Below, piece by piece: positions 24,832 through 31,140 of a stretch of 38,403 bases of DNA. The position numbers were made by a program, and so were the translations under genes. How positions within the stretch are numbered: position 1 is the first letter of the stretch; every line of letters starts with the position of its first letter. The notes beneath the pieces are model-generated. The model was not told the DNA's origin. It made no database searches and worked only from the letters and a program-made list of their open reading frames with translations. The stretch is from a virus. The stretch lies in the IMG/VR virus record IMGVR_UViG_3300010208_000017, positions 1 to 38,403 of that record; one strand, given 5' to 3'.

Positions 24832-25005
24832 GATTCTTCCTTAAACTTTTTTGAAAGTATAGCAAATAAAATTACATATCGCAAGATATAACTTATTTTA
24901 TATTTCTTATTGATGTATTTTATAAATTATATTACATATTGATATTCAATAGTAAATTACTATCTTTTAGATAAAATAATGACAATTTATTATAAAAGAG
25001 AAACA
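24832..25005. promoter_or_regulatory. divergent AT-rich promoter region between mor and the TIR-like gene
   Basis: This gap carries the promoter of the TIR-like gene. TTGATA (about 24940) sits 16 bases before TATCTT, with GATAAAAT also available, so a host-type sigma-70 promoter independent of phage activators is plausible. A small hairpin ATATC-gcaa-GATAT lies near 24878-24891. TTACATAT occurs twice. The boxes are read by eye in very AT-rich DNA, so the assignment is tentative. Confidence 0.4.
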
Positions 25006-25839
25006 ATGGAAAAACAAGAAGCCTTAAAAAAATTAAATGATTTAATAGAGGATTTAAAAAATCTACCAAGTTATAACAAAGATGGCATGCCAGAATATAG
25101 TAAATGGTATAGAAAAATTAAAAGAACTATAGAAAAAATTTTTGGAGAGGCAAGTAGTCACCTTTATGATTTAGAAAGAATGAAATTTGAACATATTCCT
25201 TTTAATCAAGCATTTGACAATATAAACAAAACAAGTGGAGAAGAGAATAGATTTCACAAATTGATACTTGAAAAAATAAGTTTAATAGAGTCTCTTATCG
25301 AAGAAGTAGAAGAGTGGGAAGATAATACAGCAAGAACATACTCTACAACCAAATTGGAAGGAACAACAGTTACTGTAGTCAATATAAAAGATACTACCCC
25401 TAAAACAAAGGTATTTATTGTCCATGGGCATGATAAACAAGCACGTCTTGAAATAGCAAGGTTTCTTGAGAAACTTGATATCGAGGCAATAATGCTTGAT
25501 GAACAAGCGAGTGGAAACAATACAATCATTGAAAAGATAGAAGAGTATTCAAGTCAAGTAGGATTTGGAATAGTTTTATATACAGAATGTGATATTGGCG
25601 GGAAAGATGAAAACTCATTGCAGCCAAGAGCACGTCAAAATGTAGTTTTTGAACATGGATATCTTGTTGCTAAACTAGGTAGAGAGAATGTATGCCAAAT
25701 AAAAAAAGGAAATGTTGAGACACCAGGAGATGTGAGTGGAGTTGTTTATATTACTATGAATAGTGATTCTTGGCACTTGCCTTTAGCTAAAGAATTAAAG
25801 AAAGCAGGATATAATATTGATTTAAATAAGTTATATTAA
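25006..25839 (+). CDS. TIR-like nucleotide-binding domain protein (probable NADase-type defence cargo)
   Basis: The start at 25006 (MEKQEALKKL) is chosen as the shorter form; an ATG at 24979 is also in frame, and both have weak ribosome sites (AAGAGAAA before 25006). The 277-aa product has a helical N-terminal region (1-110), a linker, and residues 134-277 matching the predicted nucleotide-binding TIR-like family (PF10137): KVFIVHGHDKQARLEIARFL, LDEQASGNNTIIEKIEEYS, VGFGIVLYTECDIGG and the signature PRARQNVVFEHGYLVAKLGR at 207-226, with candidate catalytic Glu216. Relatives are NAD-cleaving effectors in CBASS/Pycsar-type anti-phage systems. No nucleotide cyclase lies beside it. Its position between gemA and mor on the opposite strand marks it as cargo. 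Activity and trigger are inferred. Confidence 0.85.
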   Translation: MEKQEALKKLNDLIEDLKNLPSYNKDGMPEYSKWYRKIKRTIEKIFGEASSHLYDLERMKFEHIPFNQAFDNINKTSGEENRFHKLILEKISLIESLIEEVEEWEDNTARTYSTTKLEGTTVTVVNIKDTTPKTKVFIVHGHDKQARLEIARFLEKLDIEAIMLDEQASGNNTIIEKIEEYSSQVGFGIVLYTECDIGGKDENSLQPRARQNVVFEHGYLVAKLGRENVCQIKKGNVETPGDVSGVVYITMNSDSWHLPLAKELKKAGYNIDLNKLY

Positions 25840-26394: not shown

Positions 26395-27327
26395 TTAAAT
26401 TGCTTGGTAGATATGAGACCTACCTTCTTCTTTGCAAGACCAATATTTACCTACATATTTTTTTAAAAATGCAGTTGCAGTTTTATTTGCACTAGTAGTA
26501 CTAAGTGCTTTATCAAGCAATGCACCTTGAGGCATAGGTTCTTTATTTTGAGTTAAAACAGTAACTATTTTTTTAATTTCTATTTGTTCATGAGCAGGGA
26601 TACAGATATCATCATAATCAAGTATCTCTAAGTCATAGTTATCTTTTAATAGAAAACCACAATCACTCACTCTAAACCTGCCCTCATCTTTTTCAAGTTT
26701 GTATGTTTTACCATCTGCATCTTCATATTCTAAAGTTAATTTATAGATATTATCTGTTGCAGATTTAAATACAGTTGATCCTTTATAATTAGGATCTTTT
26801 TTATTAGTATGATGTAGTATTATTATAGTTGCTCCAGCAGATCTTAATTTCTTCATCTTTCCCATAAATGATTTAACAGAACTATCGCTTGATTCATCAC
26901 AAAAATCAGTTGCACTATCAAACATAAAAATTGTATCGTCATAGTTCTTAGTTGCACTATTAGCATCTTTTACAAGTATTTCAAGAGCATCTTTTGTATC
27001 TATTAAAATAAATTCTTCATCTTTAGCAGCTTCAGCTAAAACCTCAGGATGCATATAGTCAAATCTATCACTTAACTCTTCCCATAAACTATCTACACCT
27101 CTGTCTTCTAAGGCTATAAGAGGATTATCATTGTCATAATATTCTGTATAGAGATTTGTGTTTTTATATATCCATTTGGACAAACCACATAAAAACATAC
27201 TCTTACCTTGTTTTGGAGGGGCATAGATAATAGTAATTGTATTTTTAATCAAGAAGTTAGGGATGATGTATTCAGCTTTAGCAGCTTCTCTTCTTTTCTT
27301 AACTCCTTTCCCTCTAAATCTACTCAT
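26395..27327 (-). CDS. RecA-like (RepA/AAA_25-type) ATPase
   Basis: The 310-aa product has Walker A APPKQGKS (36-43), Walker B TIFMFDS (132-138), and a sensor-like IIILHHTNK (168-176), the arrangement of hexameric RepA/RadA-type ATPases. The N-terminus is basic. Residues 245-310 form a probable winged helix (LTQNKEPMPQGALLDKALS, then AFLKKYVGKYWSCKEEGRS). Such proteins act as replicative helicases or DNA-bound motors. A RepA-like ATPase is not part of the Mu core. It ends five bases from array 1, suggesting it may act there. Confidence 0.75.
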   Translation of the reverse strand: MSRFRGKGVKKRREAAKAEYIIPNFLIKNTITIIYAPPKQGKSMFLCGLSKWIYKNTNLYTEYYDNDNPLIALEDRGVDSLWEELSDRFDYMHPEVLAEAAKDEEFILIDTKDALEILVKDANSATKNYDDTIFMFDSATDFCDESSDSSVKSFMGKMKKLRSAGATIIILHHTNKKDPNYKGSTVFKSATDNIYKLTLEYEDADGKTYKLEKDEGRFRVSDCGFLLKDNYDLEILDYDDICIPAHEQIEIKKIVTVLTQNKEPMPQGALLDKALSTTSANKTATAFLKKYVGKYWSCKEEGRSHIYQAI

Positions 27328-27614: not shown

Positions 27615-27724
27615 TCTCTTTCCTTCTTACATTTTTCACATCTACAAGGGTAGATATAACCATAAACTAAATTTCTACATCTATATTTCCAACAAACTTT
27701 TTGTATAAAAAAAACCTTATACAT
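27608..27724 (-). CDS. short cysteine-rich protein, 38 aa
   Basis: ATG at 27724 overlaps the stop of the upstream zinc-ribbon gene (TGATG), and the frame ends with TAA overlapping the start of the next gene by seven bases. The product has six cysteines in 38 residues (VCWKYRC, then PCRCEKCKKEREC), arranged as possible zinc ligands. Tight packing and coupling on both sides support a real gene despite its size. Confidence 0.5.
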   Translation of the reverse strand: MYKVFFIQKVCWKYRCRNLVYGYIYPCRCEKCKKEREC

Positions 27725-27936
27725 CACCCACCCTCTACTATTCCACATTTTTTGCACTCAAACACAGCTCCAGCATAAACAGCTATAAGCTCAAAATCAT
27801 GTGCACAGTTAGACTGTAGATCTTTGATTCTTTCATATTTTTCTGCATTATCAGCATTTAGATTATCTATTCTTTTACAATTGTCAGCTATATATCGTTC
27901 CATAGCTTCTATATCTTCTTTTGTCGTATCTTCCAT
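27724..27936 (-). CDS. zinc-ribbon early protein, 70 aa
   Basis: The start is ATG at 27936 (MEDTTKEDIEAMERY), seven bases after GAAGGAGG; the longer reading begins inside the shared upstream sequence. Residues 1-40 are helical. NCAHDFELI at 43-51 and FECKKCGI at 59-66 supply a C-x-H / CxxC zinc site. Conserved intercistronic element A precedes it. Function unknown; small zinc ribbons of this kind occur in early phage operons. Confidence 0.65.
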   Translation of the reverse strand: MEDTTKEDIEAMERYIADNCKRIDNLNADNAEKYERIKDLQSNCAHDFELIAVYAGAVFECKKCGIVEGG

Positions 27937-27955
27937 AAAACCTCCTTCAAATAAT

Positions 27956-27989
27956 CTCAATAGAACAGCTCGACAGCTGCTCTATGAAA
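27956..27989 (-). other. intercistronic element A (flank / palindrome / flank)
   Basis: On the plus strand CTCAATAGAA, a 14-base palindrome CAGCT-cgac-AGCTG, then CTCTATGAAA. The stem extends into the flanks with a wobble that pairs only in minus-strand RNA (AGAGCAGCU with AGCUGUUCU around a GUCG loop), so the structure is probably formed in the early transcript. It lies about 20 bases before the ribosome site of the zinc-ribbon gene. Confidence 0.6.
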
Positions 27990-28235
27990 CTACTTATTTT
28001 GATTTTCTATAAACTTATTTTTCATATCCTCTAGTAGTAAATCAATATTTGGGTAAAGTTCTGATTCATCTGCCCAAAAAGGTGTTTTTCTACCATCTAA
28101 TCTGATGTTGTAATCAACTGTTTGTTTATCAAAATCTGATAGAACTCTAACTTTCAATATTTTCGCTTTTACAATCTCTTCTTTATGTATTCCAAATACT
28201 TCATCTTCAGGATCAAACTTTGTTTCTATCTTCAT
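27990..28235 (-). CDS. hypothetical early protein, 81 aa
   Basis: A compact acidic, beta-rich protein (MKIETKFDPEDEVFGIHKEE, AKILKVRVLSDF, YNIRLDGRKTPFWADESELY). The central beta strands resemble a small SH3-like or Tudor-like barrel, but this is only an impression. The start directly follows the stop of the upstream gene (one base apart). Element A lies immediately after its stop codon. Function unknown. Confidence 0.62.
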   Translation of the reverse strand: MKIETKFDPEDEVFGIHKEEIVKAKILKVRVLSDFDKQTVDYNIRLDGRKTPFWADESELYPNIDLLLEDMKNKFIENQNK

Positions 28236-28778
28236 CTAACTAACCTTTTTAGAACAAATTTCATCAAGTAGACTTTCTTTATCATCAGATGTTAATTTAT
28301 TAACTGAATTTCTACCTCTTTCAAATGCTGCTTTTCCAAACTCCAAGAGCTCATCTTTAGTTAAAGTATAAGTTTTATTCTCAATTGTTATTCCTGGAAC
28401 GATATCTTTTTTAGTTTTTTCTACTACATTATTTTCTTTTGCCACTATTATCTCCTTTTTCTTTTTTTGATTGTTTTTTGTAGCTTGAATTTGCTGTTTT
28501 TTTCTAAGCTCTCTTTTCTCTTCTTGTTTTTCTTTTTGTCTTTCTGAAGAGTCAATTTTTTTACACTCTTTACATACACTCATATGACCTTTTGAAGTAT
28601 TGTCTTTATAAAACTCACTTAGTATTTTCTCTTGATTACAAGTAGTACATACATAAGTTCCATCATCTAAAAAGTGTCTACAACCTGTAAGTTCAAAATA
28701 ACTAGTTGGTTTAATCCTATTTTCTTTACATCTTTTCTTGTAGCTTTCATAAGCAACTCTCGTCATTGGATTACTCAT
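28236..28778 (-). CDS. zinc-binding (CxxC...CxxC) early protein, 180 aa
   Basis: The start is ATG at 28778 (MSNPMTRVAYESYKKRCK) after GAAAGGAG; the longer frame begins in the shared leader sequence. CTTCNQEKILSEF at 44-56 and CKECKK at 69-74 form the two-CxxC zinc site often found in phage DNA-associated proteins. A charged Lys/Glu-rich helix (75-105) and a C-terminal LLEFGKAAFERGRNSVN segment follow. It may bind nucleic acid; no catalytic motif is visible. Element B lies in its leader. Confidence 0.65.
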   Translation of the reverse strand: MSNPMTRVAYESYKKRCKENRIKPTSYFELTGCRHFLDDGTYVCTTCNQEKILSEFYKDNTSKGHMSVCKECKKIDSSERQKEKQEEKRELRKKQQIQATKNNQKKKKEIIVAKENNVVEKTKKDIVPGITIENKTYTLTKDELLEFGKAAFERGRNSVNKLTSDDKESLLDEICSKKVS

Positions 28779-28797
28779 AAATCTCCTTTCAAATAAT

Positions 28798-28886
28798 CTC
28801 AATAAAATAGTTGAATGTCAAAGATGCTTTACATTTCTAGATTTTTATTCAAAATGTAAAGTATCTTTTACAACTACTCTATGAAA
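28798..28886 (-). other. intercistronic element B (flank / nested palindrome / flank)
   Basis: CTCAATAAAA at 28798-28807 and CTCTATGAAA at 28877-28886 enclose 69 bases. An outer stem (ATAGTTG with CAACTAC, wobble in minus RNA) surrounds an inner 14-bp stem, GATGCTTTACATTT (28823-28836) with AAATGTAAAGTATC (28852-28865). The flanks are those of elements A and C. Upstream bases CAAATAAT are shared with A. Confidence 0.6.
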
Positions 28887-28890
28887 CCAT

Positions 28891-29121
28891 TTATCCCTGT
28901 ACAAACTTGTTTGTTGCCTTTTGTTCAGAAATAAATTCTGTATAAAATTCTTCATTACCACAATGCGGGCATACATATTTACTTTCAATTTCAGAAACAA
29001 CTTTCTCTGCGAGTTGAGAATGTAAACCTTCCCAACCACATTTCCTTGTTTTAGTACATTGCCATACCTCTATACACTTTTCTCTTCTTACTTCTTCAAA
29101 CTCTTCTTTAGTAACTTTCAT
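28891..29121 (-). CDS. zinc-ribbon protein, 76 aa
   Basis: The start is ATG at 29121 (MKVTKEEFEEVRREKC), after AAGGTGG; an in-frame GTG at 29130 is less likely. WQCTKTRKCGWEG (20-32) and YVCPHCGNEEFY (49-60) provide two Cys pairs that make a zinc ribbon. Function unknown. It is followed immediately by element B and is transcribed with the endolysin gene. Confidence 0.65.
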   Translation of the reverse strand: MKVTKEEFEEVRREKCIEVWQCTKTRKCGWEGLHSQLAEKVVSEIESKYVCPHCGNEEFYTEFISEQKATNKFVQG

Positions 29122-29139
29122 AACCACCACCTTATTAAA

Positions 29140-29709
29140 TTAATTGTTACCATTTTTTAAGTACTCTAAACTTTTACTAATAGCTTCACAGTACCACTTA
29201 GTTAAATCTCCATTATCAAAGCACTCTTTAGCTCTTAGTAACTCTTCATCATTATCCAAGAAAAAAGGTTCGCAGATGATACAAGGAGCCTGCGTATATC
29301 TAAGCAGATACCCACCTCTATCCTCAGAACTTTTAGCCTTGATTCCTCTGTCATTATTTTCAAGTCTTTGCACCAGGTGATTTTGAAAGATTCTAGCTAT
29401 CTCTTTTCCTTTTTCACTCTTATGATAATAAAGCATTTCGCAACCACTAGCATGGGTATCAAATGCATTACAATGAAGACTCACTATTAAATCTGGATTT
29501 AACTCATTGATTTGTATAGGTAAGTCTTGATAAGTAGTCTCTCTGTAAACAACTATTATCTCATCTTCATGAAAGTTAAATAGATCACCAAAATTATGCT
29601 CTATATCATGAGCTAAAGCTCTATTAAACTCAAACTCTTTTACATCATAGTTTTTATTAACTGCACCAACTGACCTCTCATTGTGTCCTATTACAATTGC
29701 AACTTTCAT
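29140..29709 (-). CDS. N-acetylmuramoyl-L-alanine amidase endolysin (Amidase_3)
   Basis: The 189-aa product has the zinc amidase ligands: GHN (His9), a Glu in DVKEFEFN (Glu25 or Glu27), SLHCNA (His79), and catalytic-type Glu147 in CIICEPFF. No signal peptide or cell-wall-binding domain is seen, so export would depend on the holin. It cleaves the lactyl-amide bond in peptidoglycan. It lies inside the early operon, far from the holin at 15.0-15.5 kb, and overlaps the DUF3164 gene by four bases. Confidence 0.88.
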   Translation of the reverse strand: MKVAIVIGHNERSVGAVNKNYDVKEFEFNRALAHDIEHNFGDLFNFHEDEIIVVYRETTYQDLPIQINELNPDLIVSLHCNAFDTHASGCEMLYYHKSEKGKEIARIFQNHLVQRLENNDRGIKAKSSEDRGGYLLRYTQAPCIICEPFFLDNDEELLRAKECFDNGDLTKWYCEAISKSLEYLKNGNN

Positions 29710-30368
29710 ACTGAATCCTTTACTCGTTTCTCATCTTCAGTAGTTATTTCTAAACCTGCTAAATCTAGAACTATATGTTCCAAAACTCCATCTACATCAT
29801 CATTTTTTCTATGTTTAAATCTGATGTATGATTTAGTTCCCGCTATCTCAGTTGCATCATCAATCATGCTCATTGCTTCTTTCCAAATTGGATGTGTTAT
29901 TTCATATGATTTTAAAGATAAAATTTGTTTAGCATCAACTTTTCCATTTTTTACATCAAAAGCTCTTGTAATAAGAGTTTGAATTTCAGCATCTGCACCA
30001 TTTGTTTTAAGTGTTAAATACTCATCTATTTTTTCTTTTGCAAGTGATAGTTTTTGATCAAAAGTTATAAGCTTAGTCACTTGTATTTCAACCACACCTG
30101 TACCATCATAAGTTTTAAGTGTAACAGCTCCACTTTTAGAAGTGATTCTCTCCATATCATATTTCTGTCTAAGTAAATCAACAAAACCATAACACTCTTC
30201 AAAAGCAGCTATCTTGAATTCTTTCATTGCACCTTGAAGAATAATTGCACCATGAATTAACTTTTCTACAGCTTCATCCTCTAACTGCTTATCAGCAGGA
30301 ACCATATCAGGATGAACATAAGTTCCATCCTTTTTTCTCCAGTGACCTTTTTCATTTTTATGTGCCAT
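29706..30368 (-). CDS. DUF3164 family protein
   Basis: The 220-aa product matches DUF3164, common in Mu-like early regions: GHWRKKDGTYVHPDMVPAD at the N-terminus, MKEFKIAAFEECYGFVDLL, KSGAVTLKTYDGTGVVEIQV, and the C-terminal SYIRFKHRKNDD followed by LEHIVLDLAGLEI. The function is not established. It overlaps the preceding gene by one base and the endolysin by four. Confidence 0.82.
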   Translation of the reverse strand: MAHKNEKGHWRKKDGTYVHPDMVPADKQLEDEAVEKLIHGAIILQGAMKEFKIAAFEECYGFVDLLRQKYDMERITSKSGAVTLKTYDGTGVVEIQVTKLITFDQKLSLAKEKIDEYLTLKTNGADAEIQTLITRAFDVKNGKVDAKQILSLKSYEITHPIWKEAMSMIDDATEIAGTKSYIRFKHRKNDDVDGVLEHIVLDLAGLEITTEDEKRVKDSV

Positions 30369-30823
30369 TAATTACCTCCCAATTTATCTTGTAAGCTTTT
30401 CTCTATTCTTAAAATAGGTGCTAACATCTCTTTTGTAGTTTCAATATCTGCTAAAAGTGTATCCATCATATGTTCAGCTAAATTTTTCATTCCACAAGTA
30501 CTAAACTGACTTTCATAAGTCACACCTTTTCCAGCAGTTAGGTGTTCTTGTTTTGTATAACTTTTTAATGTTAGATCATGGTTGTCATGATTATCTACAA
30601 ACTGCAAGAAGTGATGTAGTTCTTCTTTTCTCTTCTCTAAACGTTCAAGTCTTTTTTCAAGTTCTAGTTTTTGAGGACTCATTACTGTAATAGAACTAAA
30701 ATCACCCTCTTTAGATGCTTCATCAACTCCAACAAAACCACCACTTGCAAAACCACCTTTTAAACTTCTAACCATCATCAATGCAGCATATTCTACATCT
30801 GAAACTTCTATTTTTTTACTCAT
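30368..30823 (-). CDS. hypothetical early protein, 151 aa
   Basis: A mainly helical protein with a Gly-rich N-terminal segment (GGFASGGFVGVDEASKEGDF) and a long coiled-coil stretch (KLELEKRLERLEKRKEELHH, residues 52-71). Position beside DUF3164 and coiled-coil content suggest a DNA-end or nuclease-inhibitor role like Mu Gam, but no Gam signature is visible. It has an AAGGAGAAAA ribosome site. Function unknown. Confidence 0.65.
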   Translation of the reverse strand: MSKKIEVSDVEYAALMMVRSLKGGFASGGFVGVDEASKEGDFSSITVMSPQKLELEKRLERLEKRKEELHHFLQFVDNHDNHDLTLKSYTKQEHLTAGKGVTYESQFSTCGMKNLAEHMMDTLLADIETTKEMLAPILRIEKSLQDKLGGN

Positions 30824-30832
30824 TTTTTCTCC

Positions 30833-30940
30833 TTATATTAAATAATTTAAAGCTATAACAGCCAAACCTAACAAACAAAAAACTATAACCCAGAACAAAA
30901 GAATTACAGGTGCATCTTCATTTCCAGTGGGATTTTCCAT
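30833..30940 (-). CDS. very short membrane protein, 35 aa
   Basis: ATG at 30940 follows AAAAGGAG, and the frame gives MENPTGNEDAPVILLFWVIV, continuing in a 20-residue hydrophobic helix and ending NYLI. It ends ten bases before the next gene. Single-span peptides of this kind in phage early operons can affect the host envelope; no family was recognised. Confidence 0.55.
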   Translation of the reverse strand: MENPTGNEDAPVILLFWVIVFCLLGLAVIALNYLI

Positions 30941-30971
30941 TCAATCTCCTTTTAAAATCTAATTTTGAGTA

Positions 30972-31012
30972 CTCAATAAAATCTTCACCTTAAAGGTGAA
31001 GACTCTATGAAA
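30972..31012 (-). other. intercistronic element C (flank / palindrome / flank)
   Basis: CTCAATAAAA at 30972-30981, a perfect 21-base palindrome TCTTCACCTT-a-AAGGTGAAGA at 30982-31002, then CTCTATGAAA at 31003-31012. The core shares nothing with A or B, but the flanks are identical or nearly so. It lies before the 35-aa membrane protein gene and three bases after the broken ORF at 31015. Confidence 0.65.
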
Positions 31013-31014
31013 AC

Positions 31015-31140
31015 TCACTTGACTATTTTCATCTTCTTTCTTCCATATAACAAAGCAGATATCTTCAAGCTTCTATTTAGTTTTTTAATCTCTTTTTGTG
31101 TTAAATATCTAGCATTTGGCTTAATCTATTTTTTGCTCAT
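31015..31140 (-). pseudogene. short gene interrupted by an in-frame amber codon
   Basis: ATG at 31140 follows AAGG and reads MSKK, then TAG, then IKPNARYLTQKEIKKLNRSL and a further basic segment to a TGA at 31015, for 41 codons. The reading after the stop looks like a coherent basic helical peptide. The TAG is not explained by a homopolymer slip, since other A-run lengths do not restore the frame. Either the gene is broken or translation starts within (ATT or a later TTG). Confidence 0.4.

Follow-up and report, generated by a model that had tools for sequence, protein, structure and literature searches.

A bulged RNA hairpin, possibly a site of RNase III processing, recurs between genes of Campylobacterota phages and of a few host operons

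Three repeats from the early region of a Mu-like phage genome represent a single type of RNA hairpin, formed in the early transcript of the minus strand, and this hairpin is common to several kinds of Campylobacterota phages and to a few host operons. By comparison with known processing sites it is held, with moderate confidence, to be a site at which host RNase III would cut polycistronic transcripts.

Three hairpins in the early operon of the phage

The window, i.e. the whole stretch of 38,403 nucleotides that was analysed (IMG/VR record IMGVR_UViG_3300010208_000017), contains three sites that a preliminary description had presented as constant flanks around unrelated palindromes. Their coordinates, sequences and core lengths (14, 69 and 21 nt) were confirmed, and the 8/10 identity between the flanks, both read on the minus strand, was reproduced. 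The sites are real, but their proposed anatomy needed correction: rather than standing apart from the palindromic cores, the flanks pair with each other, as the two strands of a single conserved internal helix, and the helix extends outward past them (AAGUAGU/AUUAUUU in copy 1, AAUGGU/AUUAUU in copy 2 and GAGU/ACUC in copy 3). The two 10-mers look alike because they pair with each other. Since the flanks pair mutually and the helix runs outward, each site is a single long hairpin with one bulged U, in which the core forms the apical stem and loop (Table 1). The 69-nt core of copy 2 (window 28808-28876) is itself a nested long hairpin; similar long nested cores were seen in L100 (9164-9261) and L271 (8447-8552).

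Folding of the minus-strand RNA resulted in -25.2, -34.3 and -26.7 kcal/mol for copies 1, 2 and 3 (z -6.8, -6.3 and -7.7), compared with -11.1, -23.2 and -17.9 kcal/mol for the plus strand, and the extra wobble pairs noted previously indeed formed on the minus strand only. The sequence CTCTATGAAA occurs exactly three times in the 38.4 kb. The spaced pattern was found twice in the window with a gap of at most 40 nt, a limit exceeded by the 69-nt gap of the third copy, versus 0.00 occurrences after dinucleotide shuffling. The window copies and related ones were combined in a covariance model, which identified exactly the three window sites and none other (E 5e-15 to 5e-8).

The early operon is read on the minus strand, and each hairpin is placed between an upstream stop codon and the Shine-Dalgarno (SD) sequence of the gene that follows. 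The 3' arm of copy 1 continues into the SD of the following gene (GAAGGAGG), relatives of which in L183 and L125 likewise have the element in front. Beyond the window, the family is restricted neither to early genes nor to phages. On the opposite strand to the early operon, a 286-aa protein is encoded at window positions 24979-25839 (+), with a C-terminal TIR-like domain and matches to the PADLOC candidate PDC-S35 (E 2e-82) and to TIR effectors; it is likely a defence cargo gene of the phage.

Table 1. Hairpin copies and adjacent early genes in the window
Feature	Position	Strand	Evidence
Copy 1, 22-bp hairpin	27948..27996	-	71.0 bits, E 4.7e-15
Bulged U of copy 1 (UAUU-GAG)	27960	-	RNA fold
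Copy 2, same conserved middle helix, 69-nt core as long nested apical hairpin	28790..28893	-	43.3 bits, E 4.7e-8
Bulged U of copy 2	28802	-	RNA fold
Copy 3, UACUC-type basal helix (GAGU/ACUC), 21-nt core	30966..31017	-	53.2 bits, E 1.5e-10
Bulged U of copy 3	30976	-	RNA fold
81-aa gene upstream of copy 1	27990..28235	-	TAG stop inside hairpin 5' arm
Small gene directly downstream of copy 1	27724..27936	-	ATG at 27936, SD GGAGG
Gene downstream of copy 2	28236..28778	-	weak match, phage endonuclease VII/HNH families
79-aa gene upstream of copy 2	28891..29130	-	stop 4 nt ahead of TTTCATAGAG
Small gene (35 codons) downstream of copy 3	30833..30940	-	read from sequence
DUF3164 gene, further downstream of copy 3	29706-30368	-	Pfam

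The paired structure is conserved by compensatory change

Pattern searches over IMG/VR and GTDB contigs and three covariance models yielded 91 distinct elements, and it is near certain that these constitute a real family. A lack of further copies in related phages would have spoken against the proposed element; instead, dozens were found, in phages of the Arcobacter type and in others, and compensatory change among them is strong. The elements have in common a middle helix, UUCAUAGAG / YUYUAUUGAG with one bulged U (family consensus UU[C/U]AUAGAG / YUYUAU-U-[G/A]AG), inside a helix of 20-23 bp of which the apical and basal parts vary with pairing kept.

Across the 91 copies 91.5% of cells are paired. 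In the 91-row alignment, which was fitted to the model and is therefore biased toward structure, 416 cells were changed on both sides of the pair versus 141 +/- 9 after shuffling, and the covariation score was 0.618 versus 0.220 +/- 0.009 for shuffled rows and at most 0.126 for slid registers. An earlier MAFFT alignment of 23 seeds already contained 69 doubly changed cells versus 24.5. The suggestion of selection for structure is thus borne out by compensatory change far above the shuffled controls. Even the 'constant' core covaries: C14-G108, present in 62 rows, is replaced by U-A in 27, a number raised in part by one search aimed at this form, although host and phage copies with it had turned up before it was looked for. 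Core invariance is exaggerated because the searches were seeded with the core, and looser forms were identified at homologous places (L180 11261-11316, L125 3028-3088, L080 4486-4546). A stretch of 1.2 kb in L232 (1546-2721) holds four elements, one per junction of successive small genes; two of the four cores are altered (UUUAUAGUG, UUUAUAUGG) and the opposite arm is changed to match.

At least 18 of the 21 modelled pairs are formed in 85 of 90 copies, giving near-continuous dsRNA of about 20 bp. A U-G wobble is present in 86 and the bulged U in 88 of the 91 copies. The outer pair 8/115 is A-U or U-A in 90/90 copies and G-C in none, and would therefore suit minor-groove reading. Length and sequence of the loop are free (3 to about 70 nt); since both helix ends also vary with pairing kept, the body of the helix rather than the loop would be the part that is read.

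The hairpin occupies a fixed place and strand between genes

Of the two strands, the sense strand gives the better fold in 88 of 90 copies. A stop codon near the start of the element combined with an SD and start codon after it was observed in 73/90 copies versus 2.6% of positions drawn at random from these loci; some of the stop codons counted are the TAG within the core. The term 'modular intercistronic element' holds. Likewise, 73 of the 90 are co-directional with both flanking genes. In L060, L070, L034, L063, L170 and L178 the element stands at the end of an ORF, often a small one (none is clear in L070), and no obvious gene follows it for about 110-300 nt. The sequence that follows is alike in L060 and L070 (GGCTTATTA..TCCA.GTAGC), perhaps as part of a larger non-coding RNA.

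Two sites are typical of Campylobacterota Mu-like phages. One precedes DUF3164 (in the window and in L183 it precedes the gene or genes before DUF3164), and the other is located a few genes upstream of a helicase-like gene (window 26395-27327). Elsewhere the element follows genes for an SU10-type major capsid protein (L244), a major head protein (L257), a tail tube protein (L248) and a P22-type portal (L129), or it follows a T7-type SSB ahead of DNA polymerase (L177). In L185 (1501-1557) it lies between a 110-aa and a 57-aa gene, the latter resembling by eye an inovirus major coat protein, with no Pfam or PHROG match.

Among host operons, the arrangement uppP / hairpin / DEAD-box helicase was found in 7 genomes (L167, L168, L171, L187-L190; for L187 this rests on the helicase side). 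Four genomes (L284-L287) have the hairpin between metE and metF and one (L166) has it between ilvC and minD, with metE, uppP, ilvC and minD identified by eye from sequence. The uppP-helicase copies drift in sequence while pairing is kept. At the metE-metF junction a U/CU internal loop replaces the single bulged U.

Host copies are rare

A short-pattern search of IMG/VR returned 118 stretches, mostly due to chance, from which the true copies were sorted by palindromic core and fold energy. True matches among the first named GTDB records belonged to Arcobacter, Aliarcobacter and Sulfurimonas, and 12 of 104 genomes of Arcobacteraceae, the family of the Aliarcobacter genome G001, matched. The covariance model R3 matched 14/298 Campylobacterota genomes. 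With the same settings it matched 0/296 genomes in the phylum of L128 (Robertkochia) and 0/299 in the phylum of L122 (Pelagibacteraceae), numbers that do not prove absence elsewhere because the prefilter of R3 is strict. Across 200 Campylobacterota genomes, the pattern ATAGAG-N-YTTTATTRAG occurred at about the same rate as its control, save for a few palindromic matches; host copies are therefore rare. Many IMG/VR contigs have no assigned host. No named phage matched the early region by megablast. Copy number is one to four per phage.

Comparison with known RNA elements

No match to the Rfam 15 covariance models was obtained for the window elements or for 8 further loci. Literature searches found no description of the hairpin, and for TTTCATAGAG no phage or bacterial RNA element was among the matches listed.

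The closest parallel is offered by the RNase III sites in the early and late mRNA of phage T7 (R0.3, R0.5, R1.1 and others), which are likewise intercistronic hairpins right ahead of the next SD, with an upper stem of 9-10 bp, a helix irregularity and a lower stem. At the irregularity R0.3, R0.5, R1.1 and R18.5 carry CUUUAU^G in the 3' arm. The T7 sites differ in having an internal loop instead of one bulged U, the metE-metF copies being nearer to them in this respect, and in the 5' arm, which reads ACUCAAGG in T7. When R3 was run without filters against the T7 genome (V01146), no match was obtained at E up to 10. The element would thus work like a T7 RNase III site, yet it cannot be classed as one on present evidence.

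RNase III of E. coli cuts hairpins in rnc and rpsO-pnp, mRNAs for enzymes of RNA metabolism. These hairpins are not known to have sequence in common with the Campylobacterota element. They resemble the uppP-helicase site, a predicted target of cutting, in lying in an RNA-metabolism mRNA. Both E. coli hairpins have been named as RNase III hairpins (PMC8708148).

The ESAS of cluster K mycobacteriophages, 17-bp inverted repeats tied to a 13-bp SAS in one phage cluster (PMC3203893), are similar in being imperfect inverted repeats of fixed sequence with a variable spacer before the starts of some phage genes (PMC3203893). The Campylobacterota element differs in its sequence, in lacking an SAS and in its occurrence in many phage types and host operons; the 13-bp SAS GGGATAGGAGCCC was not found after the elements, where a plain SD is present. 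The 16S rRNA processing stalk of Arcobacteraceae (AAUCUUUGUAAAC/GUUUAUAAAGAUU) has a CUUU/AAAG box and the AGAUUAUU end in common with the element; it reads AAUCUUURUAAAC/GUUUAUAAAGAUUAUU in L224-L227, and the stalks of L228 and L229 bear no resemblance. This likeness may be regarded as a weak lead. REP/BIME sequences are intercistronic imperfect hairpins that occur in hundreds of copies per genome and accompany RAYT transposases, in contrast to the one to four copies per phage, fixed orientation and strong RNA-strand bias of the present element.

A candidate RNase III site and other explanations

The free loop, the kept helix length, the conserved middle and an outer pair that is never G-C point to a factor that reads the body of dsRNA, and the copies in uppP-helicase, metE-metF and ilvC-minD point to a host factor. 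RNase III would be the parsimonious candidate among such factors. RNase III of C. jejuni is active and cleaves T7 R1.1 (PMC3839596), and in T7 the early polycistronic mRNA is cut by RNase III at five sites (PMC4858673). The proximal box of E. coli RNase III is CWUW/WAWG, 2-5 bp from the cut (PMC5141509); on the assumption that cutting takes place at the bulge, C101U102U103U104/A17G18A19G20 fits it at 7/8 places. For the distal box, which in E. coli is UU/AG and expected 10-11 bp from the cut, no counterpart was found at that distance; UU/AG is present as U12-U13/A109-G110, but adjoining the bulge, and the upper-stem position is variable. This absence, the lack of a match in T7 and the low number of host copies argue against RNase III.

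E. coli RNase III sites have no strong consensus (PMC8708148), and the core, nearly invariant in part because of the search seeds, with 9-10 bp far more conserved than in known RNase III sites, may instead point to a sequence-specific RNA-binding protein, encoded by host or phage. Such a protein would regulate how the downstream or upstream cistron is translated, or how stable it is, without cutting, the hairpin acting as an operator. The wobble and the bulged U resemble a protein-reading motif, the SD adjoins the hairpin, and the DEAD-box helicase gene behind the host copy in 7 genomes makes autoregulation of the helicase possible. Nevertheless, such an operator is considered rather unlikely: a single regulator for all copies would be odd because the downstream genes are functionally unrelated, the loop is unconserved in contrast to coat-protein or boxB operators, and the stem usually does not include the SD. 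The frequent position right behind genes for abundant proteins (major capsid, tail tube, SSB, portal) would also suit a passive 3'-end stabiliser or insulator, i.e. an exonuclease barrier or a block to translational coupling like E. coli REP hairpins; this is improbable, as the internal sequence, bulge and wobble would be unneeded for it, yet they are the best conserved features.

A DNA-level element dispersed by recombination, either a mobile hairpin of the REP or attC kind or an operator for a DNA-binding protein, could account for conserved arms around a variable centre, one extrahelical base and varied neighbours. We regard it as very improbable, since wobble pairs give the sense strand the best fold (88/90), the orientation between stop and SD is fixed, compensatory change occurs on either side of the core, and copies are few per genome and mostly lacking from host chromosomes. 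The copies are neither strand-symmetric nor independent of orientation (73/90 co-directional), and the attC and REP readings were rejected on strand bias and fixed position. Least credible of all is that transcription of the early operon is terminated or attenuated at these sites, although the intergenic hairpins are stable; an intrinsic terminator was rejected, as a U-run after the 3' arm is absent and the hairpin leads straight to an SD and start codon.

If the hairpin is a processing site, the gap between stop codon and SD would fold, once transcribed, into the 20-23 bp helix with its conserved middle, the body of which would be recognised and cleaved by a double-strand-specific endonuclease of the host, most likely RNase III. 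By analogy with the T7 sites, the 3' arm would probably be cut at the bulge or adjacent to it (CUUUAU^UGAG); in copy 1, this predicts cleavage at or next to the bulged U 27960 (-). Cleavage would separate the cistrons of the long mRNA, giving the upstream message (often for capsid, tail tube, portal or SSB) a structured 3' end, with the SD exposed on the downstream one. In the window phage, as many as four mRNAs would result from the early Mu-like transcript. The data show the hairpin, its covariation, strand, intergenic place and spread, and its absence from Rfam; from the comparisons we infer where it is cut, how this affects expression and that its reader is RNase III.

Implications

A hairpin new to Rfam recurs in phages of the Mu-like, P22-portal, SU10-capsid and T7-SSB types and in host operons of one phylum. 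A broader and more tentative reading, possible but somewhat doubtful, is that Campylobacterota and several unrelated groups of their phages share a sequence-specific dsRNA code. In it, one conserved nine-bp helix with a bulged U would signal where cistrons meet, so that the mRNA of each could have a fate of its own, and the dedicated reader would be a new RNA-binding protein or an RNase III of unusual specificity. The collected elements are natural candidate substrates for studying how RNase III of Campylobacterota (C. jejuni, Arcobacter) chooses its sites, a matter on which E. coli offers a weak consensus. The hairpin is also a possible genetic part for the separation of cistrons in Campylobacterota, and a marker for the annotation of their phages.
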